Part shown: positions 8,105 to 62,353 of the stretch, one piece after another
Numbering within the stretch: the first letter of the stretch is position 1
Layout of the letters: every line of letters starts with the position of its first letter
DNA from: Acidobacteriota bacterium
GTDB taxonomy: Bacteria; Acidobacteriota; Vicinamibacteria; Vicinamibacterales; 2-12-FULL-66-21
Direction of reading: 5' to 3'
Assembly (NCBI GenBank): GCA_003222675.1
Contig: QHWT01000040.1
Coordinates: 1 to 64,000, forward strand
Length of the DNA stretch: 64,000 nucleotides
Program-made: the position numbers and the translations under genes
The notes under the pieces: generated by a model
Databases searched by the model: none
Seen by the model: the letters and a program-made list of their open reading frames with translations, nothing else
What the model was told of the DNA's origin: nothing

Positions 8105-8965
8105 GTGGCGGATCCGTCCAGCGTTTCAATCGTCATTCCGGCGTACAACGAGGAAGAAGGCATCGCGGACGTCATTTCGACGCTGCGCCTCGCCGCCTCA
8201 TGGCACGAGATCATCGTCGTCGATGATGGCTCAGCAGACGGCACGGGGGACCGCGCCGCCGCGGCGGGAGCGGCTGTCGTCACGCATCCGTACAACAAGG
8301 GCAACGGCGCCGCCGTGAAGAGCGGCATCCGGCGCGCCACTGGCGAATACGTGCTGATCATCGACGGCGACGGCCAGCACCCCCCGGAAGATGCGCTGCG
8401 GCTCGTCTCACGACTGGGCGAGTACGACCTCGTGATCGGCGCGCGCGCGGGCGCGACACAGGCAACGCAGACGCGCAGGGCCGGGAACTCCGCTTTGAAC
8501 CGGCTCGCGAGTTACCTGACCGATCGGGAGATCCCCGATCTGACGTCGGGATTTCGCGGCGCACGGCGCGAGCATCTGCGCGAGTTCCTGCACCTGCTGC
8601 CAAACGGTTTCTCCACGCCGACCACGACGACCCTGGCGTTCATCAAGGTCGGATACAACGTCATCTTCGAGCCGGTGGAGGCGCGTCAGCGCGCGGGGCA
8701 ATCAAAGATCAAGCTCGCGCGCGACGGCACGAAGTTCCTGATAATCATTTTCAAGATCGTCACGCTCTTCAGCCCTCTCCGCATTTTCCTGCCGCTCAGT
8801 CTCGCATCGTTCATTGTGGGCGCCGGCTACGCGGCATGGACGATCGCGACGCAAAGCCACGTTACGAACTCGTCCGTGCTCCTGATTCTCTTCGCCGTCG
8901 TCGTGTTTCTCGTCGGTCTCGTGTCCGAGCAGATTTCCGCGCTGCGCTTCGAAGGCCGGCAGTGA
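8105..8965 (+). CDS. Family 2 glycosyltransferase, polyprenyl-phosphate type
   Basis: A GT-A enzyme of 286 residues: SIVIPAYNEEEGIADV, IVVDDGSADGTGDRA, IIDGDGQHPPEDA (DxD) and TSGFRGARRE. Two C-terminal membrane helices follow (about 215-240 and 250-275). It starts with GTG immediately after the preceding stop and ends overlapping the GT39 gene by four bases. A lipid-linked sugar made here could feed that GT39 enzyme; this is inferred from the pairing of DPM-type and GT39 enzymes in general. Confidence 0.85.
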   Translation: MADPSSVSIVIPAYNEEEGIADVISTLRLAASWHEIIVVDDGSADGTGDRAAAAGAAVVTHPYNKGNGAAVKSGIRRATGEYVLIIDGDGQHPPEDALRLVSRLGEYDLVIGARAGATQATQTRRAGNSALNRLASYLTDREIPDLTSGFRGARREHLREFLHLLPNGFSTPTTTTLAFIKVGYNVIFEPVEARQRAGQSKIKLARDGTKFLIIIFKIVTLFSPLRIFLPLSLASFIVGAGYAAWTIATQSHVTNSSVLLILFAVVVFLVGLVSEQISALRFEGRQ

Positions 8966-10236
8966 CCCGCTCGCGACGGTGGATCGTCGCGGCGATCGCG
9001 GTGGGCTTCGCAGTGCGCGTCGCGTTCGCGCTCGGCTACTGGGTGGAACAGCCGCTCACCCACGACGAGCGGGAGTACCTCGCGCTCGCGCGCAGCATCG
9101 CGCGAGGAGACGGCGTCGTGTATCCGGCCGACGAACCCGTCACCGGCACGGCGCAGCGGTTCGGCCGCGCTCCGGGATACCCGGTCTTTCTGGCGATGCT
9201 TCACGTCACGCAGCCGGTGGACACCGTCCCGGCGAGGGTGAAGATTGCGCAATCGGCCGTCGGCGCGATCGGGGTCTGGTTGATTGCGCTGATCGGCGGG
9301 CGCGCCGCGGGACCGAGGGGAGCCGTCGCGGCGGCGGGGATTGCCGCGGTCTATCCACCGCTCGTGTTCATGCCGGCGTACGCGCTGAGCGAGACGCTCT
9401 ACTGCACCGTCGCGCTCGCGGCGGCGTGGGTGCTCGGAACGGTGACACTCACACTTTCCGAGCGGCCAGGAAGTGTGACAGTCACAGTTCCGAACCGCAA
9501 AAGTGTGACTGTCACCGTTCTGGGCGCTGGACTGACCGGAATCGGGATTCTCGTCAGGCCGGCGATGCTGTTCTTTGTTCCGTTCGCGGCGGCGTGGATG
9601 GTCTGGAAGCGCGAAACGAGACACGCGGTCATCTTCGTGCTGGTGACGCTCGCGTCGGTGGCGCCGTGGACCGTCCGCAACGCGCGCGTGCATGGACGGT
9701 TCGTCCTCGTCGCGTCGGAAGGCGGCGTGACGTTCTGGACCGGCAACAACCCGCTCGCCCGCGGCGAAGGAGATATGGCCGCGAATCCCGAGTTGAAGCG
9801 CGCGGAGCTCGAATTCAGAAACCGGCACGCGGACCTGACGCCCGAGCAACGCGAGCCGCTCTACTACCGCGAAGCGTTCGCCTGGATTCGCAGGCATCCC
9901 GCTCAATGGACGGCGCTTCTCGCGCGCAAGGTCTTCTACACGATCGTCCCGCTCGGACCGTCGTATACGCTACACTCGAAGAAGTACCTGGTCGCATCCG
10001 CCGGCGCGTATCTCCTCCTGCTGCCTCCTGCGCTCGCCGGGGCGTGGCGGCTGCGGCGCGGGTGCGCACCGGTTGCGCTCTGGTTGCTGGCCGCGTCGAC
10101 GGTCTTCGTCAGCGTCGTATTCTTCCCGCAGGAACGGTTCCGGATTCCCGTGATCGATCCCGCATTGATCGTTTCGGCTGCCGCGCTGGCCGCGGCGCGT
10201 TCGCATGAACATACTGGTTGTCGTTCCAACCTATAA
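8962..10236 (+). CDS. ArnT/GT39-type membrane glycosyltransferase with in-frame repeat insertion
   Basis: Multi-pass GT-C enzyme expected to transfer a sugar from a polyprenyl phosphate on the outer face of the inner membrane. GTG 8962 overlaps the previous TGA and gives 424 residues; the ORF-track start at 8836 lies inside the preceding gene. The first periplasmic loop has the family acidic pair (HDEREYLALARSIARG). The loop after about residue 155 is made of three copies of a 20-bp repeat, encoding the unusual run TVTLTLS...SVTVTV...SVTVTV between membrane segments. The tail overlaps the next gene by 32 bases. Confidence 0.8.
   Translation: MTRSRRWIVAAIAVGFAVRVAFALGYWVEQPLTHDEREYLALARSIARGDGVVYPADEPVTGTAQRFGRAPGYPVFLAMLHVTQPVDTVPARVKIAQSAVGAIGVWLIALIGGRAAGPRGAVAAAGIAAVYPPLVFMPAYALSETLYCTVALAAAWVLGTVTLTLSERPGSVTVTVPNRKSVTVTVLGAGLTGIGILVRPAMLFFVPFAAAWMVWKRETRHAVIFVLVTLASVAPWTVRNARVHGRFVLVASEGGVTFWTGNNPLARGEGDMAANPELKRAELEFRNRHADLTPEQREPLYYREAFAWIRRHPAQWTALLARKVFYTIVPLGPSYTLHSKKYLVASAGAYLLLLPPALAGAWRLRRGCAPVALWLLAASTVFVSVVFFPQERFRIPVIDPALIVSAAALAAARSHEHTGCRSNL
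9438..9520. repeat. Three copies of a 20-bp repeat, AAAGTGTGACTGTCACCGTT, inside a GT39 gene
   Basis: Copy 1 (9438-9457) is in reverse orientation; copies 2 (about 9471-9489) and 3 (about 9500-9519) are forward. Each contains a GTGAC-N-GTCAC palindrome. Spacing keeps the GT39 reading frame open. Confidence 0.85.
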
Positions 10237-10915
10237 CGAGCGCGAGAACCTTCCGCTGCTCGCCGCCGGCGTGCTCAAACACGACGGTGTTCGCATGCTC
10301 GTCGTCGATGATGATTCGCCCGACGGTACCGGTGCCATCGCGGATCAGCTCGCGCGCGAGCATCCGGGACGCGTCGAAGTCATGCACCGCACGGGAATTC
10401 GCGGCCTCGGCCGCTCGTACGTCGACGGCCTGCTTCACGCCTTGAAGGAGGGCACCGCGGACTTCATCTGCCAGATGGACGCCGACCTCTCGCACAATCC
10501 CGATTACCTGCCCGAACTGGTCGGGGCTGCGGCAACCTACGACCTCGTGATCGGCTCACGGTACCTGAAAGGGGTCAGCGTCGTGAACTGGCCGCTGCAC
10601 CGCATCATCCTCAGCGCCTTGGGCAATCGCTACATTCGCCTGATCACCAACCTCGCGACGAGCGACTGCACGAGCGGCTTCCGCTGCTGGCGGCGCGAAG
10701 CGCTGTCCCGACTGCCGATCGCCGGTATGGTGTCCGATGGGTACGCGTTCCTCGTCGAGATGCTCTACAACGCGAAAACGCTCGGACTTCGGATCGGCGA
10801 GGTGCCGATCATCTTCGTCGAGCGCCGGCAGGGTCAATCGAAGCTGTCGTCCACCGTGCTGCTCGAGTCGCTCGTGATGCCCTGGCGTCTTGTGTTCCGC
10901 GGCTCCAACTCCTGA
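10205..10915 (+). CDS. Polyprenol monophosphomannose synthase-like GT2 (DPM1 family)
   Basis: Soluble GT-A enzyme of 236 residues lacking membrane helices, like DPM1-type synthases that make polyprenyl-phosphate mannose or a related sugar. Motifs: VVPTYNERENLPLLAAGV, VVDDDSPDGTGAIAD, QMDADLSHNPDYLPEL with DxD, GSRYLKG, and TSGFRCWRREAL. The C-terminal EVPIIFVERRQGQSKLS is also typical. It could supply the lipid-linked donor for the GT39 enzymes in this cluster; the sugar itself is inferred from the family only. Confidence 0.88.
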   Translation: MNILVVVPTYNERENLPLLAAGVLKHDGVRMLVVDDDSPDGTGAIADQLAREHPGRVEVMHRTGIRGLGRSYVDGLLHALKEGTADFICQMDADLSHNPDYLPELVGAAATYDLVIGSRYLKGVSVVNWPLHRIILSALGNRYIRLITNLATSDCTSGFRCWRREALSRLPIAGMVSDGYAFLVEMLYNAKTLGLRIGEVPIIFVERRQGQSKLSSTVLLESLVMPWRLVFRGSNS

Positions 10916-51439: not shown

Positions 51440-51847
51440 TTACATCAGTTTGCCCACCGGCCCCAGATCCAGATTGAGATCGTCGGGCGCGATGTCGAAC
51501 TGTTTCGCGAGATCGAGGATGGTCTCCCGCAGCCGCATCAGCGCCAGGCCCACCGACTCGGTCTCCTCCTCTGTCAGCGTGCCGTTCTCCATTCGCCGGA
51601 TCGCCTGGCGCTCCAGCAACTGACGGATCAGTTCGACGAGCGTCAGGACGAGCTTCAGCACGGATCGCTTCACGTCCTCCGGATCCGCATTCCACCGCGG
51701 CGGGCGCTCGGCGGCCACCTGCGCAATCTGCTTGCGGATTGCGTCAATCTGCGCCGCATCGGCCGGTTGGGCCATGCGCGTCTTCCGTGCGGTCTTCCGC
51801 TGCCTGCCCGCCCCTTTGTGCCGGCTGCCTCCGGAATGCCTTTTCAT
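51440..51847 (-). CDS. gvpK: Gas vesicle protein GvpK
   Basis: 135 residues, the last gene of the gas-vesicle operon. The core RWNADPEDVKRSVLKLVLTL, VELIRQLLERQAIRRMENG and LTEEETESVGLALMRLRETI leads to a C-terminus with the family DLNLDLGPVGKLM. A basic N-terminal tail of about 25 residues (MKRHSGGSRHKGAGRQRKTA) precedes it. GvpK is required for vesicle maturation; its molecular job is unclear. The ATG overlaps the gvpL-like stop by four bases. Confidence 0.93.
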   Translation of the reverse strand: MKRHSGGSRHKGAGRQRKTARKTRMAQPADAAQIDAIRKQIAQVAAERPPRWNADPEDVKRSVLKLVLTLVELIRQLLERQAIRRMENGTLTEEETESVGLALMRLRETILDLAKQFDIAPDDLNLDLGPVGKLM

Positions 51848-52503
51848 CCCAGCAGCTCCGGTACGAAAGCATATGGAGGAAACGGGCCGCTCAGCGTAGG
51901 CACGACAGAAGATGACGATGGGATCTGCGAAGCGGCCGAAAGATATGCGTCGATGCTTTTGCGCTCCACGAGGTGGTAGAGCGTTTCAGGTAGTGCAGAA
52001 CGCGAAGGCTCGTAGCGTTCGGCCGAGATGAACGGCGCGAGGCGGCGCCGGATCGACGAGAAGCGCGGCGGAGGCGTTATCGCGCGAGCGGCACGACAGA
52101 GATACTCCGTGCCCGACATCGTATCGGGCCGTTGGATGATCGTGGCGGAGGTTCGGCGCCGGTCCCTGCGTGGCGCGCGCCATGAGAACTGGGCGCGCCC
52201 GCGCACGAGATCGAAGGCCTCTGCCAGTTCCTCGTCCTTGCCGTCGAGCGCATCAGCAATCTCTGTCGAGTCGAGGAGTGTCCCGAAGCGCACCGGCAGG
52301 ATCGCAGGGACATGCTTCCACAGCCGGGCGACGACAACGTGATGCTTTTTCAACGCGCCCAGTTCAACTGGCGGGACGTCGGCCCGCCGTTCGGCGGCGA
52401 CATAACACGCGGCCATCTCCCTCACAGCGATCGGCCCACTCAATCCCTTTCCCGCTCTTCGCAACGGCGGCGCATCGAGCAGGGCGAAGACATACCAGGC
52501 CAT
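51844..52503 (-). CDS. GvpL/GvpF-family gas vesicle protein (third copy, divergent)
   Basis: 219 residues from ATG 52503 (ATGA overlap). MAWYVFALLDAPPLRRAGKG matches the opening beta strand of GvpF/L. HHVVVARLWKHVPAILPVRFG is the VxPxxFGT-type motif, and the C-terminal LSGPFPPYAFVPE is the GPWPPYxFV signature in altered form. The family caps and nucleates vesicle assembly through contacts with GvpA. It is the most diverged of the three copies here. Confidence 0.85.
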   Translation of the reverse strand: MAWYVFALLDAPPLRRAGKGLSGPIAVREMAACYVAAERRADVPPVELGALKKHHVVVARLWKHVPAILPVRFGTLLDSTEIADALDGKDEELAEAFDLVRGRAQFSWRAPRRDRRRTSATIIQRPDTMSGTEYLCRAARAITPPPRFSSIRRRLAPFISAERYEPSRSALPETLYHLVERKSIDAYLSAASQIPSSSSVVPTLSGPFPPYAFVPELLG

Positions 52504-52856
52504 CAGCGCCTGGCGCCCGGCATCACGCGGTCCGCGGCGCACAGGAGCGCGGACAGCCGGATGTACACCAGATCGACGTTCGCGAGCGCGAGAATCACGT
52601 CGGCATTGAGCACGACACCCTTGTTGAGCAGGTTGTCGAGCACGTCGAGCAGCGTCGACTCCTCATCCTCGATCGGTCGCGCGATCCGGCGTTTCGCGGG
52701 TGGCCTGCGACTGGGTGAACTCAGGGTCAGCTTCGGAACGAGCGGCCGTTCAGGCGGTGGCGCGACTCTCGGCCTTGTCGGCGGCTTGCCGCTGACGGTC
52801 GTATGCCGCCTGCGCGGCGACACCGTGGAATACCGCGGAACGCAGGGAGGCCTCAC
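52503..52856 (-). CDS. GvpA-family minor gas vesicle protein (GvpJ/M/S-like)
   Basis: 117 residues: a Pro/Arg-rich N-terminal region of about 65 residues (RPPCVPRYSTVSPRRRH, PPERPLVPKL) followed by one GvpA-like core, STLLDVLDNLLNKGVVLNAD, then ILALANVDLVYIRLSALLCA. The core matches minor GvpJ/GvpM/GvpS proteins, which are involved in nucleating the vesicle and are not its main wall. GTG start, coupled to the gvpL-like gene before and ATGA-coupled to the next. Confidence 0.82.
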   Translation of the reverse strand: MRPPCVPRYSTVSPRRRHTTVSGKPPTRPRVAPPPERPLVPKLTLSSPSRRPPAKRRIARPIEDEESTLLDVLDNLLNKGVVLNADVILALANVDLVYIRLSALLCAADRVMPGARR

Positions 52857-53656
52857 GAGCGATCCTCGACGGCAGCGACGAAGTTATAGGCGGGCCAAGG
52901 TCCACTCAGCGTGATTCCGGCGCCCGCGCTCGCGCACGCGACAGCCTGGCGCCGTGCTTCCGCCTTGAACCGCGGGCGCGCGGCGGTTGTGACGAGAAAC
53001 GCTGCCTCGAGAAGCGGTGGGTTCAATCCCGGCTCTGGTCGACGCTCGCGTCGTCGCGCGTCACGTGCGAATCTCCGCAACCGCGCGTATGCGCGGTCCG
53101 CGGCGGTAATCGCTTCCACGCGCGCGGCTCTCGCCGCATCGCGCGCTTCCTTCCGCGCGACGAGAAAGGCTGTGCCACCTTTGTGGAAACCGCCAGTGGA
53201 TTTCGAGGTCCGGCGCGACGCTCGCGGCATGCTCTCTGTGACCGAACGCGTCACGCGAATGCCCCATTCCTCGCAGCCGGCAATATGCCGCATCGCGCGT
53301 TCCAGCGAAACGCGGCGCGCGCGCACGTCCGAGACGGCTTTGTCGGCTGACGAGAACATCGTGAACAGCTTCATCGGGAGGACCGTCGTGCCGCGCATCC
53401 GCGCGAAGTGCTCGACCACGCGTTCGTGCGCCACCGCAGCCTGTGACACCCATTCGAGATCGCGCAATCGCGGCTCGAGTCGCGATGGTCCGTAGATGTC
53501 GAGCGGCACGTCCGCCGCGATCAGCCATAACCTGGCGGCCGCCTTGACTGGTTCGGGTCGAGTTGCCCCGTCGAGCCCGCTGGGCACGCGCGCGACGGAC
53601 GGTTGCCGGGCCGCACGGACCAGACAGTAGAGATACACAGCGGAAGTCGCAGACAT
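52853..53656 (-). CDS. GvpL/GvpF-family gas vesicle protein (second copy)
   Basis: 267 residues from ATG 53656 (track start 53686 lies inside the ATPase gene). SAVYLYCLVRAARQPSVARV begins the N-terminal GvpF/L domain, TTVLPMKLFTMFSSADKAVS the middle, and LSGPWPAYNFVAAVEDRS is the C-terminal signature. An Arg/Ala-rich helical stretch (about 150-215) is typical of the coiled-coil part. ATGA overlap with the ATPase gene indicates strict co-production. Confidence 0.87.
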   Translation of the reverse strand: MSATSAVYLYCLVRAARQPSVARVPSGLDGATRPEPVKAAARLWLIAADVPLDIYGPSRLEPRLRDLEWVSQAAVAHERVVEHFARMRGTTVLPMKLFTMFSSADKAVSDVRARRVSLERAMRHIAGCEEWGIRVTRSVTESMPRASRRTSKSTGGFHKGGTAFLVARKEARDAARAARVEAITAADRAYARLRRFARDARRRERRPEPGLNPPLLEAAFLVTTAARPRFKAEARRQAVACASAGAGITLSGPWPAYNFVAAVEDRS

Positions 53657-55737
53657 CAATTGATTCGCCGCCAGAAGGACGCCCACCGCGCCAGCGACTC
53701 GACGCCATGCGGCGGTGGCACCTCGGCGGGAGCCTCGATGATAGTGTAAGGTCGTTTACCGCGGGCTCGCGTCAGCAGCAGCGTGATTTCGCGTGCCTCC
53801 GCGCGTTCGATCGTCTCGCACCTCGCGCACGTGCCCGCGCCCACCGCATTCACGATCGAGCCGGTGACGGCGATTCCGAGCCTGTCAAGCGCCTGCTGCA
53901 AGCGAATCGACTCGGCGCGCGGCAAGGCCGCCGCCCGCGTGACAATCACGAACTGCGCCTGCGAGCCGTCGCGCAGAATCGCCTCCACACGGCGCAGCCG
54001 CTTCGAGAACTGCACCAGCAATTCCGCGAGCGTGCCCGCGCCGATGATCTCGTGGTACTTGAGGAGGATGGCCATCAACGCCTGCGTCCACTCGCGCAGG
54101 AGTGCTGGTGTCTCGAGCAGCCGAAGCGCATGACCTGTGGGGGCCGTATCGGATACGATAATCTCCCCGCTTCGGGCCGAATCGGCGAGCGTGTCGGCCA
54201 CGTCTCCTATCGCGATCACCTCGTCGATGCCAGGCGGCGCGAGATCGATCAGTTTGCGGAAGGCCGCTCGATCGGCCCCGACCTGAACCGCGCCGCGCGC
54301 GATGTTCTCGAATGCCTTGTCGACCGAATCGAGATAGCGCGTCCGAAAGCGCGCAAGGCTGGCCGCCGCATCGATCTCGCGAACCCGCAGATTCCCGGGC
54401 GCACCATGGATCCCCACAGCGCGGTCGCCGATGCGTGCAGCCAGCACGTCGCCAAGCGAGTGCGCTGGATCGCTTGACAGCAGCAGGATGCGCCGATTCG
54501 GATGGCGGGAGGCCAGTTGCAGCGCAAATGCCGCCGCACATGTCGACTTCCCGACGCCGCCTTTGCCGCCAAAGAGTATCCAGCGCGAGTTCTCTGCGAA
54601 GTCTGTAAACCAGCGACCGGGATCTGACGCTTGTGTAAACGACCGACCGGGGTCTGACCCCGGTGTCCCAGAACGAACACTCCGTCGCTGCCCGCGCACG
54701 CGGCGCGCCACAGGCGGCAACGACACGGGCCGCGACCATCGCCGCATTGACCGCGCGACGGAGCGTAGCGCGCGAACGCCGCGCGGCTCGGCATCGAGCT
54801 GTGGCAGCGTGACGATTTCCACATCCGAGAAGCGCGACGCGATCGGCCGGATCGCGCGCGATTCGAACCGCCGCCGGGCATCGCACCACTCGCAGGGCTT
54901 CGGCGGAGCGGGCGTGGCCCGGTTCACCAGCAGCGATCGCACGGTGATTCCCACGCGCGCGAGCGCCGACATCGCATCGCTCGTCTCCTCGAGCGCCATC
55001 GGTTCCGGCAACGTGACCCACGTGATCCTCGTCAGCGCCTCGTCCCTCAGCCGCGCGGCGAGCGACCGGCCCTCGCCCTCGATCTCCGCGATCAACGCGT
55101 CCGCGGCATCTGCCGCGTAGCGTCCGCGCAGCGCGCTGACCACCATCCGATGGTGCGCCTGCAGGGTGTCGAGCAGCTCCGCAACCCGTTCAAGGAGGAC
55201 GGGCGTGGACAACAATCGCAGCGTATGACCGGTCGGCGCCGAGTCGACGACGACCACGTCGTAGCTGTTGGCGGCAACACGCGCAATCTCGAGCAGCCCG
55301 ATGACCTCATCGATCCCGGGCAGCGACAGCTTGAGCAGACGGCCGATATCTTCTTCGTCGAGATAGGTGCCGCGAAGCGCGATTGCGGACAGCAGGTCAC
55401 GCCGCGGGGCGAGCCATCGATCGAAGGCGCGCGTGGCGTCGAGATCCACGGCGCGGAGGCGGGGCACTCCGGCGACCGCGCGCGGCACGGAGGCTACGCG
55501 CACACCCAGGACATCACCGAGCGAGGAGGCAGGATCGGTCGAGACGAGCAGCGTGCGATTGGTGCGCGCCGCCTCGATCGCGAATGCGGCCGCGCACGTG
55601 GTTTTGCCGACGCCACCCTTGCCACCGACCAACGCAAAAGACGGAAGGCGGAACACAGAAGACGGAAGTACTTCCTTCTTCTTTCTTCCGACTTCCGTCC
55701 TGGGTCGTGTTCGTCTTCTAGTGTTCTTCGCCCTCAA
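53656..55737 (-). CDS. Tandem ArsA/Get3-like ATPase in the gas vesicle operon
   Basis: 693 residues made of two ArsA/Get3-type halves. Each has the deviant Walker A (GGKGGVGKTT near 38-46, GGKGGVGKST near 390-398), a switch I (STDPASSLGDVLG; SSDPAHSLGDVL), a switch II (VDSAPTGHTLRLL; SDTAPTGHALRLL) and a CxxC (CEWC near 282, CARC near 637), as in zinc-bridged Get3 dimers. No arsB, arsC or arsD is near, so arsenite pumping is unlikely. A chaperone or targeting role for hydrophobic GvpA-type proteins is the inference. The linker and the N-terminal 30 residues are repeat-coded; an in-frame GTG at VFRLPSF is an alternative start. It overlaps gvpG by 20 bases. Confidence 0.88.
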   Translation of the reverse strand: MRAKNTRRRTRPRTEVGRKKKEVLPSSVFRLPSFALVGGKGGVGKTTCAAAFAIEAARTNRTLLVSTDPASSLGDVLGVRVASVPRAVAGVPRLRAVDLDATRAFDRWLAPRRDLLSAIALRGTYLDEEDIGRLLKLSLPGIDEVIGLLEIARVAANSYDVVVVDSAPTGHTLRLLSTPVLLERVAELLDTLQAHHRMVVSALRGRYAADAADALIAEIEGEGRSLAARLRDEALTRITWVTLPEPMALEETSDAMSALARVGITVRSLLVNRATPAPPKPCEWCDARRRFESRAIRPIASRFSDVEIVTLPQLDAEPRGVRALRSVARSMRRWSRPVSLPPVARRVRGQRRSVRSGTPGSDPGRSFTQASDPGRWFTDFAENSRWILFGGKGGVGKSTCAAAFALQLASRHPNRRILLLSSDPAHSLGDVLAARIGDRAVGIHGAPGNLRVREIDAAASLARFRTRYLDSVDKAFENIARGAVQVGADRAAFRKLIDLAPPGIDEVIAIGDVADTLADSARSGEIIVSDTAPTGHALRLLETPALLREWTQALMAILLKYHEIIGAGTLAELLVQFSKRLRRVEAILRDGSQAQFVIVTRAAALPRAESIRLQQALDRLGIAVTGSIVNAVGAGTCARCETIERAEAREITLLLTRARGKRPYTIIEAPAEVPPPHGVESLARWASFWRRIN
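54603..54665. repeat. Repeat GACCGGGATCTGAC / GACCGGGGTCTGACCCCGG coding the ATPase linker
   Basis: Two direct GACCGGG(A/G)TCTGAC units, the second extended into the palindrome GGGGTCTGACCCC. On the minus strand they code SDPGRSFTQASDPGRWFTDF between the two ATPase halves. Confidence 0.75.
55635..55712. repeat. GACGGAAGGCGGAACACAGAAGACGGAAG tract at the ATPase N-terminus
   Basis: Purine-rich repeats on the plus strand followed by ACTTCC/TTCCGACTTCCGTCC on its right side, an imperfect inverted repeat. It codes the N-terminal stretch of the ATPase before the first P-loop. Confidence 0.65.
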
Positions 55738-56017
55738 AGGTGGCTTCGATGCCGGTGACCTTCATCTCGCCGCGAGCGATGGCAGCAGGCTGTCCGCCGC
55801 CTTGGCGTTCCTTGATCTCGCGGATCCTCGCGATGATCTCCACCTCGAGCTCGTCGAATTCTTCCTGGCTCATCTCGCCGAGCTCGACGCGCATCTGGCC
55901 CGCCAGCAGCTGATCGCGCAGCTTGCTGTCGTCGTTCATCTCGGTCTCGACGGCCGCCGCGATCTTGTCGAGCACGAAGCGAATGCCGCCGACGAGGAGA
56001 CTGTCGATGATCAGCAT
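55718..56017 (-). CDS. gvpG: Gas vesicle protein GvpG
   Basis: 99 residues. The core LLVGGIRFVLDKIAAAVETE plus the acidic helix LRDQLLAGQMRVELGEMSQE and FDELEVEIIARIREIKERQG matches GvpG, a small amphipathic assembly factor found beside gvpF/L. Its tail (MKVTGIEATFEGEEH) overlaps the ATPase start. It begins nine bases after gvpF/L. Confidence 0.92.
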   Translation of the reverse strand: MLIIDSLLVGGIRFVLDKIAAAVETEMNDDSKLRDQLLAGQMRVELGEMSQEEFDELEVEIIARIREIKERQGGGQPAAIARGEMKVTGIEATFEGEEH

Positions 56018-56026
56018 CGGCTCATG

Positions 56027-56950
56027 TCAGTGCGCCCGCTCGAGCTTCAGGCGGATATTGACGAAGTTGTACGGCGGCCACGGGCCCGTGTACTTGAAGG
56101 TGAGCTTGTCGTATTGCTGGCCGATTTCCTTGACGCGCGCGTCGAAGGCCTGCTCCATCTGCCGCGAGACCAGGAACGCCGCGTTCATGATCATCTTGTC
56201 GCCGATCGGCTTGTTCGACCGGGAAGCGACCGACACGCTTCTGAGCGCATCGAAGATTTCGGCGACATAGCGCTCCGAGCGCGACTGGAGCGCGGCGTCG
56301 ATCAGCCGGCCGTACTGCATGCGCGCGAAATACGTGGACCCTTTCTGCGAAGAGATCTCGCTCTTCAGACGCCGGATGTCCTCGTCATCTTCCTCGATCT
56401 CCCGAACGATGTGATCCCGATCCCACAGGACCTTCAGTCCGAACTCGAACTTCCCCTGCATCTTGCTCAGCACGTCGCTGAAAGCGTCATACGCGGAGCG
56501 GAGCAGCTCGATAATATCGTCGTTGGTCTTGAACACGGTGCCGAACGACATCGGAATGACCGTGTGCTTCTGCATCACGGTTTCGTTCACCTGCTGGTGC
56601 CGGAGCACGTTCTCGCGCGTCGGATCCTGAACGACGATCGGCGTCTTCGAGACCACTGCCGCGATGTCCCGATGATGGACGGTGTGCACTTCCGACGGCT
56701 CGGGCCCGAGGCCGAGCGGCCCGAAGCTCAGAGGCTCATTGGAACGAATGACGCAGTAGACATATCGGCCCTCGGTCGAATCGTCGCGCCGCGCGGATGT
56801 CGACGGCACGCGCACGCGTTCGAGCTTGCGGCGTGACGTCTCCTCGCTCGTGCCGCCCGCCCGGCGAGCGGTTTCCGCCTTACGTGTCGCGGTTGGCGCG
56901 GCTTTACTCGTGCGCCCTCCCTTTCCGGGTTTTTTTACTGATTTCGCCAT
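56027..56950 (-). CDS. GvpL/GvpF-family gas vesicle protein (first copy, with basic N-terminal extension)
   Basis: 307 residues from ATG 56950, behind GGAG at six bases spacing; the track uses a GTG one codon earlier. Residues 1-60 form a Lys/Arg/Thr/Ser-rich extension (KSVKKPGKGGRTSKAAPTAT). The GvpF/L body follows: GRYVYCVIRSNEPLSFGPLG, TVIPMSFGTVFKTNDDIIEL, KFEFGLKVLWDRDHIVREIE, and the signature YTGPWPPYNFVNIRLKLERAH. It is the most canonical of the three copies. Confidence 0.93.
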   Translation of the reverse strand: MAKSVKKPGKGGRTSKAAPTATRKAETARRAGGTSEETSRRKLERVRVPSTSARRDDSTEGRYVYCVIRSNEPLSFGPLGLGPEPSEVHTVHHRDIAAVVSKTPIVVQDPTRENVLRHQQVNETVMQKHTVIPMSFGTVFKTNDDIIELLRSAYDAFSDVLSKMQGKFEFGLKVLWDRDHIVREIEEDDEDIRRLKSEISSQKGSTYFARMQYGRLIDAALQSRSERYVAEIFDALRSVSVASRSNKPIGDKMIMNAAFLVSRQMEQAFDARVKEIGQQYDKLTFKYTGPWPPYNFVNIRLKLERAH

Positions 56951-56963
56951 CACCGACTCCGCC

Positions 56964-57404
56964 TCAGGACCGTTTCATCGACCTGCGGGCTGCGCGTCCC
57001 GCGTCCTCGGCGCTGCGCGGCGGTGATTCGAGCAGGCGCTTGATTTCGGCGACGAGTGCGTCCGGTAAACAGGGCTTCGTCACAAACGCGTCACAGCCCG
57101 CCTGACGCGCACCTTCCGCGTGTCCGGCGAGCGCGTGGCCCGTCAACGCGACGACCGGAATGTGACGCGTGCGGTCGTTTCCTTTCAATCGCCGGGTGGC
57201 TTCCCAGCCGTCCATCCTCGGCAACGCGAGATCCATCAGGATGATGTCCGGCATCAGCGTCTCCGCCATCTCGACTGCCTCGAGCCCGTTGGTTGCTTCC
57301 GCCACCTCGAACCCCGAGAACTGCAAGTACGCCGCGTACATCTCGCGCGCGTCGGGATAGTCTTCCACCACGAGGACAAGAGGCTGGGCCCGGGTGGTTG
57401 TCAT
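56964..57404 (-). CDS. Single-domain response regulator (CheY-like) in the gas vesicle operon
   Basis: 146 residues from ATG 57404, overlapping the kinase TGA as ATGA. One receiver domain: VLVVEDYPDAREMYAAYLQF (acidic pocket), ILMDLALPRMDGWEAT with the phospho-accepting Asp, VVALTGHALAGHAEGA (Thr/Ser switch) and FVTKPCLPDALVAE (conserved Lys). After residue 120 there is only a short Arg-rich tail and no DNA-binding or enzyme domain. It must act by protein contact or as a phosphate relay. It precedes gvpF/L by 13 bases. Confidence 0.92.
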   Translation of the reverse strand: MTTTRAQPLVLVVEDYPDAREMYAAYLQFSGFEVAEATNGLEAVEMAETLMPDIILMDLALPRMDGWEATRRLKGNDRTRHIPVVALTGHALAGHAEGARQAGCDAFVTKPCLPDALVAEIKRLLESPPRSAEDAGRAARRSMKRS

Positions 57405-59539
57405 CGACGCTTCACCTTGACCGGAATGCGCAGCGTAAATGTAGACCCTTTGCCGAGCTGACTCTCGAGCTCTATCGATCCGCCGAGCATCACCGAGAGG
57501 CGCCGGCAAATCGACAAACCGAGGCCCGTGCCGCCATACCCCCGGGCGGGTGAACTATCGAGCTGCCGGAAATCCTCGAACACCCTGGACTGATCCTCTC
57601 CGGCGATCCCGATACCCGTGTCGCGGACCGCCATGACCATCTGATTACCTCGCGCATCATACGCCGCCGACATCGTGACTGAACCGGAGGGCGTGAACTT
57701 CAGCGCGTTACTCAGGAGGTTCAGCAGGATCTGCTTAATCTTCTGTCGATCCGACCGCAAAGGGGGAAGCCTGCTCCGCATTTGCGATTCGACCGTGATG
57801 TTCGAACGGCGGATGATCGGCTCCAGTTCCGACATGACCTCATCCACGAGCTCGGTGACGCCGAACTTGGTGATGTTCAGCGGCATGCGCCCCGCTTCGA
57901 TGCGCGTGATGTCGAGGATGTCGTTGATGAGCGCGAGCAGGTGCCGCGCGTTCGAATCGATGCGCGAGAGGCTCTTGCGCTGCGGATCCGTCACCTGCCC
58001 TGTGACGTTGTTCAGCAGCATGTGGGTGTAGCCCAGAATCGCGTTCAGCGGCGTCCTGAACTCGTGCGACATGTTCGCGAGGAACTGCGACTTGAGCGCA
58101 GACGCCTGTTCGAGCGCGATGTGCTGCCTGCGCAGCAGCTCGTTCTGCTCGGCGAGCTCGGCCGTGGCTTCCTGGACGTTCTGCTCGAGCTCCTGCGACG
58201 CTTCCTTCAATTGCTCGTAGAGGCGGGCCTTCTCGATCGCTTCGGTCAGGTCGTGCAGGATCGTCACGACCCACATCAACTCTCCCTGTTCCGAGAGGAT
58301 CGTGCCGGCGAGCGCCTCGACCGGCAACGGGCGGCCGCTCACCGGGTCGGCCAGCTGGATCTCTCCGCGATACCGCTGCTCGCCCGAGCGCGTGAGCACG
58401 TTCGAGACAAACGACGTCAGGTTTGCGCCGTTCGCTTGCACACGGCGCAGCGCGGCCTCGTCCTCCACTCCCGGGACGTTGAACAGCCGCTCGGCCGGCG
58501 TGTTCATCAGGACGATGTCCCCTTCCTGATCGGTGACGAGAATCGGGTCGGCGACCGAATCGATGATCAGGTCAAGCCGATGGCGCTCGTCGCGAACTTC
58601 CGCCTGCGCGACCCGCAGCGTGCGGTAGCTCTCCTCGATCTCTTCCTTCGCGCGCGCCAGGTCGGTGACGTTGCGCAGAATCGACACGACGTAAGTGCCT
58701 TGCCGCTCGTCTTTTGCCCGTGAGCTCAGGAGCTCGAACAACAGGTCGGAGCCTTCGAGCGGATCGACCAGCAGGAGCTCGCGCCGCGCGAGTTCCGCCA
58801 TTCCGACGGCGCTCGTCGAGAGCGCCGCCGAAAAGAGCATGTTGTTCAGGCCGACGGCGCGCCGCCATCCCTCACTCGCTTCTTCCGGCGCCGCGAACAG
58901 CTTTTCCGCATGGCTGTTCGCGATGATCAGCTTTCCCTCCGTATCGGTCAGCAGGATGGGGTCGGTAACGGCGTTGATGATGCTATAAAGGAGCATCCGC
59001 TCCTGGCCGAACCGCGTCTCCGAGAGCGATTGCCGGCTCAGAAGCCGCGAAACCTGCTTTCCAAGCGTCCGGCCGAGCCACACGACGTCGGCGTCCAGCT
59101 CCGGGCCGATCGCGTTGACGAGGAGCAAACCCTGGCCGAGTTCACGTTCTTCCGCACGCAGCGGAATCGCGTGGAATGAGCGCCCCTCGAGCGGAACGCG
59201 ATACCGGGTGCTGATGAGCCCTTCAATGAAGACCGGATCCGGGCTGTTGAGCGCCTCGACCAGCGGATGCATGGCGTCAGCACGGCTGACCGAAAAATCA
59301 ACGACCGCGCTGCTGGGCACACCGTGGTCGGCGACCAGCACCATCTCGTTCGAGACTGCATCGGCGACCAGCACGACCGCTTGTGAAACGGAAGAATGCG
59401 CGACGAGCCATTCGATCGACCGGCGGGCAGAATCCTGAATATCGATACTCGTCAACAGAAACTCGACGAGCGCGAGCTTGGCGTTTGTGGCGAATCCGGG
59501 AACCGGCACCGCCGGTGCGGCCACGCGCGGCACGGACAT
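57401..59539 (-). CDS. Soluble GAF-PAS-PAS hybrid-free histidine kinase in the gas vesicle operon
   Basis: 712 residues with no membrane helix. In order: GAF-like sensor (about 20-175), PAS (about 180-300, IINAVTDPILLTDTEGKLII), PAS (about 315-435, IIDSVADPILVTDQEGDIVL), a coiled coil, HisKA with SHEFRTPLNAILGYTHML (His near 492), and HATPase with N box LLNLLSNALKFTPSG, DTGIGIAGEDQ and GGTGLGLSICRRL. It probably phosphorylates the regulator encoded next. Its start directly abuts the gvpA stop (TAAATG), so it is made with the vesicle wall protein. The signal is unknown; a cytosolic cue such as energy, redox or a small ligand is inferred. Confidence 0.93.
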   Translation of the reverse strand: MSVPRVAAPAVPVPGFATNAKLALVEFLLTSIDIQDSARRSIEWLVAHSSVSQAVVLVADAVSNEMVLVADHGVPSSAVVDFSVSRADAMHPLVEALNSPDPVFIEGLISTRYRVPLEGRSFHAIPLRAEERELGQGLLLVNAIGPELDADVVWLGRTLGKQVSRLLSRQSLSETRFGQERMLLYSIINAVTDPILLTDTEGKLIIANSHAEKLFAAPEEASEGWRRAVGLNNMLFSAALSTSAVGMAELARRELLLVDPLEGSDLLFELLSSRAKDERQGTYVVSILRNVTDLARAKEEIEESYRTLRVAQAEVRDERHRLDLIIDSVADPILVTDQEGDIVLMNTPAERLFNVPGVEDEAALRRVQANGANLTSFVSNVLTRSGEQRYRGEIQLADPVSGRPLPVEALAGTILSEQGELMWVVTILHDLTEAIEKARLYEQLKEASQELEQNVQEATAELAEQNELLRRQHIALEQASALKSQFLANMSHEFRTPLNAILGYTHMLLNNVTGQVTDPQRKSLSRIDSNARHLLALINDILDITRIEAGRMPLNITKFGVTELVDEVMSELEPIIRRSNITVESQMRSRLPPLRSDRQKIKQILLNLLSNALKFTPSGSVTMSAAYDARGNQMVMAVRDTGIGIAGEDQSRVFEDFRQLDSSPARGYGGTGLGLSICRRLSVMLGGSIELESQLGKGSTFTLRIPVKVKRR

Positions 59540-59863
59540 TTACCCCTCGGTGGAACGACGCCGACCCCGGCGTCTGGATGCCGCGAGCTCCGCGCGAAGC
59601 GAGGCGTTCTCCGCGCTGAGAACCTGAGATGACGGGAGTTCGGCCACAGGAGAAGGCCGCGAAATCGGCGCCACCGAGCCGACCGCCTCGGAATATTTCA
59701 GATACGTATCGATAGAGGCCACGACGATCCGCGCTTCGACGGTGATCAGGTCGATGCCAACCAGCGAGACGCGGACCCACGCGTCGATGACGATTCCCTT
59801 GTCGAGCACCCGGTCCAGAACATCGATGAGACTGGTACCGCCCGGGGCGCGTTCAACTGCCAT
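59540..59863 (-). CDS. gvpA: Gas vesicle structural protein GvpA
   Basis: 107 residues. The wall-forming core is nearly canonical: [40 protein letters not shown] and [13 protein letters not shown] non-standard C-terminal tail of about 40 residues follows ([20 protein letters not shown]... ending Arg-rich), longer than usual GvpA. AGGAG stands six bases before the ATG, the best ribosome-binding sequence in the operon, fitting a highly translated structural gene. Confidence 0.95.
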
Positions 59864-59894: not shown

Positions 59895-60230
59895 TCAACG
59901 TCGCCGACGGGATCCGCCACGCGTCGCTGTGAGCGCTTCCACACGCGCCTGCAGCTTTCGGATCTCTGCTCGAAGATTCTCGTTCTCCGCTATGCTGCCC
60001 CGCAACTTTCCTGGAGACAGATCGCGATCGTACCGCCACCAGTCCAATCCGATCTCCTGTGCCTTGTCCAGCGAGCACACGAGAAGCCGGATACGAATTG
60101 TTAGAAGCTCTACCTCGGCCAGCGAGACTCGGATATCCCCGGCAATCACGAGCCCTTTGTCGAGCACGCGGTCGAGCACGTCGACCAGTCCGCTGCCGCG
60201 ATGATGGGACCCTGGCAGGTCGATAGCCAT
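59895..60230 (-). CDS. GvpJ-like minor gas vesicle protein
   Basis: First gene of the operon; 111 residues from ATG 60230 (the track's GTG at 60251 lies upstream of the predicted start of transcription). The GvpA-family core reads [40 protein letters not shown] and LDKAQEIGLDWWRYD, the last being typical of GvpJ-type nucleation proteins. The tail ENENLRAEIRKLQARVEALT is a coiled coil ending in basic residues, like that of the GvpA next door. Confidence 0.88.
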   Translation of the reverse strand: MAIDLPGSHHRGSGLVDVLDRVLDKGLVIAGDIRVSLAEVELLTIRIRLLVCSLDKAQEIGLDWWRYDRDLSPGKLRGSIAENENLRAEIRKLQARVEALTATRGGSRRRR

Positions 60231-60239
60231 GAGGCAGCG

Positions 60240-60268
60240 ACTATAGCGCACGGCCTGAGGGCAGGCAA
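60240..60268 (-). promoter_or_regulatory. Promoter of the gas vesicle operon
   Basis: Minus strand TTGCCT (60263-60268), exactly 17 bases, TATAGT (60240-60245), then nine bases to the ATG. The predicted start site leaves only a few bases of leader, so the first transcript is nearly leaderless. Confidence 0.7.
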
Positions 60269-60312: not shown

Positions 60313-60741
60313 CTAGCCTCGCTCAGAAATCGCTTCAACCAGCTCGCCAGTCGTACGATCGTGATGGGCGCGCGTCGCAATATCCGCCTGCGAAACGATT
60401 CCCGTCAGCTTCCCGTTCGCATCGACCACGGGAACACGGCGAATCTGCCGTTGGCTCATCACGTGTACGGCCTCATCCACGTCGGCGTCCTCGGGCACCG
60501 ACACCGGATTGGGCGTCATCGCGTCCTTCACCGTTGCGGATCGGATATCCCTCCCCGCAGCCACGATCTTCACGACGATGTCGCGGTCTGTCACTATGCC
60601 GACCAGGCGCTGCTCGGGGCTGTCGACTACGGGAAGTGAGCCGATGTCTTCTTTACGCATCGTGTCCGCTACGCTGACAATCGGATCCTCCGCATGGCAC
60701 GCGACAGGGTTCGCCGTCATGATTTCCCGGCTTTTTGGCAT
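60313..60741 (-). CDS. Two-CBS-domain protein
   Basis: 142 residues from ATG 60741, behind GGAGG at four bases, a strong ribosome-binding sequence; the track start is further upstream. Two CBS motifs fill the chain: MTANPVACHAEDPIVSVADT with GSLPVVDSPEQRLVGIVTDRD, and MTPNPVSVPEDADVDEAVHV with RRVPVVDANGKLTGIVSQAD. Stand-alone CBS pairs bind adenine nucleotides and act as energy sensors. It is on the same strand just upstream of the gas-vesicle promoter, but with a gap of 82 bases to the first gvp start. Confidence 0.92.
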   Translation of the reverse strand: MPKSREIMTANPVACHAEDPIVSVADTMRKEDIGSLPVVDSPEQRLVGIVTDRDIVVKIVAAGRDIRSATVKDAMTPNPVSVPEDADVDEAVHVMSQRQIRRVPVVDANGKLTGIVSQADIATRAHHDRTTGELVEAISERG

Positions 60742-60790
60742 GCATCCTCCTTTTTGCGGCACAGAAGAGCGGATATACGCAAAAAGGGTG

Positions 60791-62353
60791 CTAGGCCCTG
60801 CGGAGCTCGCGTTTGAGGATTTTTCCAGTCGCGTTCGTCGGCAGCGCATCGCGAAACTCGACGTACCGGGGGTATTTGTACGCGGCGAACTGCTCTCGCG
60901 CCCAGGCGATCAATTCCGTCTCCGTCACGGGCGCTGAAGGACGCCGTACCACAAATGCCTTGATCTCCTCGCCAAGCCGATCGTCCGGAACGCCGACGAC
61001 CGCGCAGAGCGCCACGTCTGGATGCGTCATCAGGACTTCCTCGATTTCTCTCGGATACACGTTGAAGCCGCCGCGCAGGATCATGTCCTTCTTGCGATCG
61101 ACGATGGCAAGGTAGCCGTCCTCGTGGATGACCCCGATGTCGCCCGTGTGGAACCAGCCGCCACGCAGCGCTTCGGCGGTTTCCGCCGGCCGTCCGTAAT
61201 AACCCTTCATCACGTTGGGTCCACGGGCTACTACTTCACCGCACGTGCCGCACCGCACAGGACGGTCCTCCTCATCGACGCAGCGGATGTCGACGCCGAA
61301 GATTGGAAGGCCGACGGTTCCGGGCTTTGACGGCCGATGGAGCTGGTTGAACGAGAGCACCGGCGCGGTCTCGGACAGGCCGTAACCCTCGAGAACGCGC
61401 GTGTTGAACGCGGCTTCGAATCCACGCAGCACCTCGAGGGGCATCGGCGCGCCGCCGGATACGCACAAGCGAAGCGACGCGGCCATCGACGACAGGTCCA
61501 CACCTGTGCTGCGCGCATGCTGCAGCAGCGCCCAGTACATCGTCGGCACGCCTATCCAGACGGCGATGTGCTCGCGCTCGAATGATTCGAGGACCGAGGC
61601 CGGATCGAAGCGGGGATGAAGGACGAGGCGCATTCCGCCGTACAGGCCGGCGTTCATCTGGCACGTCTGGGCGGTCGAGTGAAAGAGCGGCAGTGTGATG
61701 AGGGCGACGCTCTGAGTGGTTCCCCGTTCGAGCGCCGGCGCAAACATGTCGAACGAGACGATCGCGTTTGTCACCATGTTGGCGTGCGTCAACTCCGCGC
61801 CCTTTGGCTGTCCCGTCGTGCCCGAGGTGTAAAGGATGACGGCGGTGTCGGTGATCTCGCGCGATGGCGGAACGAACGAGCCGGCATCCACGGTCATGAG
61901 CGCGAGCATCGACGTCGCCTGGATAGCAGGCGGACGCGCCGGATCGAGCGGCATGACAATCAACGAGCCGCAACCGGCCTCGTCACATGCGGCGCGCGCC
62001 ATCGCAGCCATCGGAAGTTCCGGCGTTCCTTCGAACGCCAGCATCGCACGCGCACCGCTGTCGCGCAGGTGATACGCAATTTCGCGCGGCTTCAGCAGGA
62101 CGTTGATCGGAACGACGATCGCTCCCGCCTTGAGGATGCCGAAGTACGCGATCGGAAACCACGAAACGTTGGGACAGGAGAGCAGGACTCGATCGCCCGG
62201 CGAGATCCCGATTGACGCCAATCCGGCGGCGACGCGTGTCGCGCGCGCCTCGAGCTCCGCGTATGTGATCTGCTGCGCGCCGCACGAGATCGCGATGCGA
62301 TCCGGAATGAGCCGCGCGGAGTGATCGAGGAGCGATGAGAGATTCAGAGTCAT
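60791..62353 (-). CDS. Long-chain acyl-CoA synthetase-like AMP-dependent ligase
   Basis: 520 residues of the ANL superfamily. ILYTSGTTGQPKGAELTH is the phosphate-binding loop, GYGLSETAPVLSFNQLHR holds the family motif, GDIGVIHEDGYLAIVDRKKD the hinge, and LPTNATGKILKRELR the catalytic lysine. It probably activates a fatty or aryl acid with ATP and CoA; the chain length cannot be told. A dispersed GCCGGGTCTGAAGACCGGC repeat separates it from the gene upstream. Confidence 0.88.
   Translation of the reverse strand: MTLNLSSLLDHSARLIPDRIAISCGAQQITYAELEARATRVAAGLASIGISPGDRVLLSCPNVSWFPIAYFGILKAGAIVVPINVLLKPREIAYHLRDSGARAMLAFEGTPELPMAAMARAACDEAGCGSLIVMPLDPARPPAIQATSMLALMTVDAGSFVPPSREITDTAVILYTSGTTGQPKGAELTHANMVTNAIVSFDMFAPALERGTTQSVALITLPLFHSTAQTCQMNAGLYGGMRLVLHPRFDPASVLESFEREHIAVWIGVPTMYWALLQHARSTGVDLSSMAASLRLCVSGGAPMPLEVLRGFEAAFNTRVLEGYGLSETAPVLSFNQLHRPSKPGTVGLPIFGVDIRCVDEEDRPVRCGTCGEVVARGPNVMKGYYGRPAETAEALRGGWFHTGDIGVIHEDGYLAIVDRKKDMILRGGFNVYPREIEEVLMTHPDVALCAVVGVPDDRLGEEIKAFVVRRPSAPVTETELIAWAREQFAAYKYPRYVEFRDALPTNATGKILKRELRRA

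Follow-up and report, generated by a model that had tools for sequence, protein, structure and literature searches.

Gas-vesicle regulation is known mainly at the level of transcription, in Serratia, haloarchaea and cyanobacteria. In Serratia sp. ATCC 39006 the regulators GvrA, GvrB and GvrC are encoded in the gas-vesicle cluster and are needed both for vesicles and for transcription of gvpA1 (PMC4982088). Haloarchaeal GvpE activates transcription and GvpD has a repressing function (PMC9501494). Outside the gas-vesicle field, the EpsW-EpsZ system of Myxococcus shows that a receiver-only regulator can act post-translationally by binding an enzyme (PMC12802240), and is a direct precedent for this kind of output. 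The locus described here shares features with each of these systems. As with GvrA, GvrB and GvrC its regulators sit inside a gas-vesicle cluster, but they are a soluble histidine kinase (hereafter HK) and a receiver-only partner (hereafter RR) placed within the structural operon, which encodes no DNA-binding protein. As with haloarchaeal GvpD and GvpE there is dedicated gas-vesicle regulation, although those two proteins involve no phosphotransfer pair. RR resembles CheY, DivK, Spo0F and EpsW in being receiver-only with all catalytic residues, whereas those regulators belong to other operons and have other targets and RR is tied to gvp genes. HK has the HisKA, HATPase, PAS2 and GAF fold of cytosolic HisKA kinases with GAF/PAS sensors and differs from them by a PAS1 signature that is conserved among the gvp-linked kinases (LNN..FS..L / RELLLVDP.EGSDLLFE). 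Histidine kinases, single-domain regulators and regulators in gvp clusters are all known; a soluble HK with a receiver-only RR inside the gvp operons of several phyla is apparently new, since no earlier description of kinases or receivers in gvp clusters that matches this pair was found in the open-access literature, subscription papers lying mostly outside the search.

The window, a 64,000-nucleotide stretch of DNA from an Acidobacteriota bacterium, carries a single gas-vesicle operon on its minus strand, the sole GvpF/L-bearing one in the 7.16-Mb genome. It opens with a GvpJ-like protein of the GvpA family (59895..60251, with a likelier ATG start at about 60230) and gvpA (59540..59863), followed by HK (57401..59539; 712 aa) and RR (56964..57404; 146 aa). 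Downstream come gvpF, the first GvpF/L (56027..56953; 259 bits), gvpG (55718..56017), a double ArsA/Get3-type ATPase (53656..55737), gvpL/gvpF (52853..53686), a small protein of the GvpA/J/S family (52503..52856), a third gvpF/L (51844..52542) and finally gvpK (51440..51847), all on the minus strand, so that the GvpA, GvpF/L, GvpG and GvpK that mark a gas-vesicle operon are all present. A reading of this DNA made from the sequence only had placed the pair at 56964-59539, between gvpA and gvpF/L, with the HK start abutting the gvpA stop, RR overlapping HK and three GvpF/L proteins in the operon, and each of these points agrees with what we found: the gap between the gvpA TAA and the HK ATG is 0, the last 4 nt of HK (ATGA) belong to RR as well, and gvpF follows RR after 10 nt. 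The neighbour that it called gvpA is a GvpA, more exactly a C-terminally extended one (107 aa) behind a GvpJ-like gene. Since the intergenic gaps from gvpJ through gvpK all lie between -40 and +31 nt, one transcript is likely, and HK is in all likelihood co-transcribed with gvpJ-gvpA upstream and with gvpF onward downstream. A gene for a CBS-domain protein (60313-60849) lies 61 nt before gvpJ, a position conserved in the window's family.

The operon holds the double ATPase and lacks GvpN, for which no match above cut-off was found anywhere in the genome. The ATPase consists of two fused ArsA/Get3-type units in one gene, which several phyla conserve in their type-1 gvp clusters; it is a candidate for a functional replacement of GvpN. 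The same genome also contains, distant from the operon, an orphan intact GvpA-like gene of 105 aa (L237:7907-8224, contig C61); its neighbours are a kinase homologous to receivers (8764-10899) and a further receiver-like ORF.

The catalytic half of HK is complete. Its HisKA (residues 483-550; 57890..58093) and HATPase_c (residues 597-708; 57416..57751) domains both exceed the Pfam cut-offs, the phospho-acceptor H492 (58064-58066) sits in a standard H-box, SHEFRTP, and is invariant across 24 orthologues, and the HATPase motifs, N and G boxes included, are all present. In the sensory half, PAS2 (residues 321-430; 58250..58579) passes the Pfam cut-off over residues 321-427. PAS1 (residues 187-300; 58640..58981) gives a weak Pfam match (187-224) and is clear in the AlphaFold model (190-290), with A228, N232, N233, L240, E254, P260, G263, F268 and E269 invariant across phyla. 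The GAF-fold domain (residues 16-165; 59045..59494) has no Pfam match in the window's HK; the best Foldseek matches in the PDB of a model of residues 1-190 (pLDDT 90.5) are the GAF-type structures 5w10 and 3ci6 (E about 1e-7), and a related kinase, that of L233, passes the Pfam GAF cut-off. Modelled together with the 24 orthologues, HK runs GAF-like, PAS, PAS, long helix, HisKA, HATPase, at a pTM of 0.36, for which reason the packing of the domains should not be interpreted. Its hydropathy over 19 residues peaks at 1.51, which indicates that there is no membrane helix. From these features HK reads as an intact cytosolic kinase of the HisKA type with three sensory domains and predicted kinase activity.

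RR consists of a single Response_reg domain (residues 10-121) and a short basic tail. The catalytic set is complete, with the acidic pair, the phospho-acceptor D58 (57231-57233), T88 and K110, and the solved single-domain regulators nearest to it by profile are of the DivK and CheY types. Only 1-22 aa extend beyond the end of the receiver profile in 42 orthologues, and RR can be taken on its domain content as an intact receiver-only response regulator. No DNA-binding or sigma54-interaction domain was found in RR or in the other operon proteins, so that a regulator of the GvrA type, with such a domain in the cluster, is absent from this operon. The sequence-only reading had described a sensor with a GAF and two PAS domains but no membrane helix, and a regulator without an output domain; this description stands, for the GAF by fold and without a Pfam match in the window protein.

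That reading had also proposed a functional tie of the pair to gas vesicles, with co-conservation as a check, and the check supports it. In a collection of 193 genomes of the class, GvpL/F is present in 36, of which 29 carry the first GvpF in a strong form (gvpF1). When the sensor part of HK alone was used as the query, HK was found in 28 of the 29 genomes with gvpF1 (E<=1e-86) versus 2 of the 164 without it, where E was about 1e-48 to 1e-58; no remaining match was better than 1e-8. The search scores were bimodal, with a Fisher p of 3e-30 uncorrected for kinship, and in the sole gvpF1 genome that misses HK (G079) the contig starts inside gvpF. A second collection, of 80 loci, was obtained by scanning GTDB genomes with an alignment of GvpF; 48 of the loci are of the window type, and 46 of these 48 have sequence upstream of gvpF. 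RR lay immediately upstream of gvpF in 44 of the 46, a count that is not independent of the first collection because some class genomes recur in the scan. The record titles of these loci name Acidobacteria, Myxococcota, Rokubacteria, Deltaproteobacteria and Planctomycetota, mostly as MAGs, and two planctomycete loci have a tandem RR pair. The exceptions were L118, whose contig is short, and L109, where RR has shifted ahead of gvpJ; the same shift is seen in G189, a single-contig genome with both HK and RR. The HK-RR pair co-travels with gvp operons across several bacterial phyla and is no chance insertion. The distances of HK, RR and GvpF also correlate (r 0.69-0.80), a relation too general to single out a partner among the Gvp proteins.

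The two gvpF-free genomes with HK, G062 (L183) and G139 (L184), proved informative about what the pair may do. In both, recognisable gvpJ and gvpA pseudogenes stand ahead of HK and nothing is left downstream of RR. The gvpJ-gvpA region of G062 has 17 indels in 668 aligned nt, many of 1 nt; its HK (1768 nt) has just three, with lengths of 6, 3 and 417 nt, and its RR a single one of 3 nt, every length being divisible by three. Compared with the nearest intact pair, the relic pair shows omega values of 0.185 for HK and 0.074 for RR, like those among intact pairs. By these measures HK and RR remain intact and under constraint after the gvp operon has decayed in G062 and G139. No GvpA or GvpF match was found in G062; since G139 also bears a fragment of another, type-2 gvp cluster, only G062 is fully without vesicle genes. 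What both relic kinases have lost is PAS1, through in-frame deletions of 417 nt (G062) and 411 nt (G139) that are separate events with different end points in different families, and among the genomes searched PAS1 is absent only where the operon has been lost. On these two cases, a small number, our reading is that PAS1 may be the vesicle-linked sensor and that the remainder of HK would serve another use. The survival of the pair after decay of the operon argues for a target outside it.

That the gas vesicles of these bacteria are served by a signalling module of their own is thus well supported, and the module appears to work through another protein and not through DNA binding of its own. 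In the reading we favour, to which we give an even chance, a co-inherited pair links vesicles to the rest of the cell as follows. HK would sense some condition of the cytoplasm that is linked to gas vesicles, most likely via PAS1, its most gvp-specific domain, and would pass phosphate to RR. Phosphorylated RR would then act by contact with another protein, in the manner of CheY, DivK or EpsW, and not on DNA. GvpF would be the likeliest Gvp contact of HK; the partner of RR is probably not a Gvp protein alone, because the pair persists where the vesicle operon has decayed, and vesicle state would be coupled to one or more targets encoded elsewhere than in the operon. Rather less probably, the pair could be a surveillance system, in which HK would use PAS1 to sense the assembly state of the vesicles, with free GvpF or GvpA as conceivable cues, and RR would report both to assembly and to an outside process. 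On loss of the vesicles PAS1 would have been dropped and the rest retained for that other process.

Control could also be post-translational and strictly local, an option already raised by the sequence-only reading, with phosphorylated RR binding a Gvp protein (GvpF likeliest, or GvpG or the ArsA-type ATPase) and so gating assembly or buoyancy. The place of the pair between gvpA and gvpF, fixed in several phyla, the constant adjacency of gvpA and HK, and the retention of the pair while the promoter type differs (see below) speak for this, as does a published proposal that during assembly GvpA has GvpF as its primary partner (PMC11445434). We nevertheless consider it rather unlikely, since the pair of G062 is intact and constrained in a genome without GvpA or GvpF matches, and RR is missing from the operons of Gemmatimonadota. 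There gvpF comes first and gvpJ-gvpA-kinase last, the kinase having 38-40% identity, and a receiver gene was looked for in these operons and not found. The ORFs downstream of the kinase were rejected as regulators, those tested being purA (in several), priA or a tRNA synthetase. Elsewhere in these genomes only generic RR relatives occur (45-50% identity, where the window's own genome has relatives of up to 56%), so that no RR orthologue can be named. Two Gemmatimonadota loci, L135 and L152, are second loci with a bare gvpF-kinase pair ahead of priA, in L135 with the likely kinase start overlapping the gvpF stop, an arrangement that again favours local control. In L152 (6867-8581) a GvpF/L-like gene also overlaps a Ser/Thr protein kinase ORF.

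Two further arrangements count in favour of a local target. In G429 (L234:7488-11351), whose genome gives no GvpA match, a GvpF/L-like gene, a PAS kinase and a receiver-only regulator are neighbours, and in type-2 gvp clusters of the class unrelated kinase-receiver pairs lie beside gvpF/L and gvpA. Such kinase and receiver-only pairs were seen in L057:5170-16832, L058 and L236, with at least two pairs in L057 and in L058. In Angelobacter (L150) another kinase fills the same slot together with a receiver of 25% identity, in L120 and L233 HK is followed by a receiver-kinase fusion, and in G187 RR remains with just a GvpF/L-like gene. Across these variants, a kinase with a receiver-only regulator recurrently partners gas-vesicle genes. 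Seven clusters of a related gvpF type (L122, L126, L128, L131, L132, L142, L149) share the rotated gene order of the Gemmatimonadota operons and lack an operon-borne kinase, which makes the HK module an add-on and not a requirement. Rokubacteria (L096, L100, L101, L103, L104, L107) have an extra kinase gene right after gvpF and, where visible, before gvpG; that of L101 is DUF4118-HisKA-HATPase-receiver by Pfam.

Alternatively the output could be transcriptional by proxy, HK mainly phosphorylating a DNA-binding regulator encoded elsewhere and RR serving as a phosphate sink or a phosphorelay step. The window's genome has 103 receiver-domain matches from which such a regulator might come, and the regulation by GvrA-C in Serratia is transcriptional (PMC4982088). 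In a sister family a conserved sigma54-type -24/-12 promoter, TGGCAY-N5-TTGCT, lies upstream of gvpJ in five loci (L082, L094, L099, L113, L116), compared with 0.08 expected from shuffles. In six loci, three of Labilithrix and three of Rokubacteria, NtrC-type regulators lie a few kb upstream (Pfam was run on L090 only) and make a transcriptional output possible there. The window's family, however, has no -24/-12 match. Its putative operon promoter, TTGCCT-N17-TATAGT at 60240..60268 (minus strand), is of the sigma70 type; the hexamers are conserved in the family and the spacer varies, TTGCCT-N17-TATA(G/T)T occurring just before gvpJ exactly in 5 loci searched, the window included, and more loosely elsewhere in the alignment. 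The same pair under two promoter types is a mild argument against control of one promoter. A search for a DNA-binding partner, which covered the operon itself and, for related loci, a distance of 6 kb, found one just in the two other lineages: outside the six NtrC loci no receiver that clearly has an output domain was seen within 6 kb of gvp genes, kinase-like and unchecked ORFs aside. The retention of a receiver-only gene beside HK also tells against this proposal, and we consider it, too, rather unlikely.

We regard it as very unlikely that a broad housekeeping kinase-regulator pair, without special tie to gas vesicles, merely rides in the operon. The pair does outlive the gvp operon in two genomes, but HK is nearly absent without this gvp type, the two cases among 164 being relics beside gvp pseudogenes, and the restriction of PAS1 loss to decayed operons among the genomes searched fits a general role poorly. 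A chance or annotation artefact, in whose favour nothing was found, can practically be dismissed, given intact domains, conservation across phyla and low omega.

The favoured reading, of a dedicated module with a reach beyond the vesicles, concerns a signalling pair that sits inside a structural operon, in lineages that are mostly uncultured and whose vesicles are hardly studied. The pair offers a testable entry to the question of which signal controls the vesicles of these bacteria and whether vesicle assembly is under post-translational control. Having been lost naturally in the two relics, PAS1 stands out as the domain of interest for vesicle sensing.
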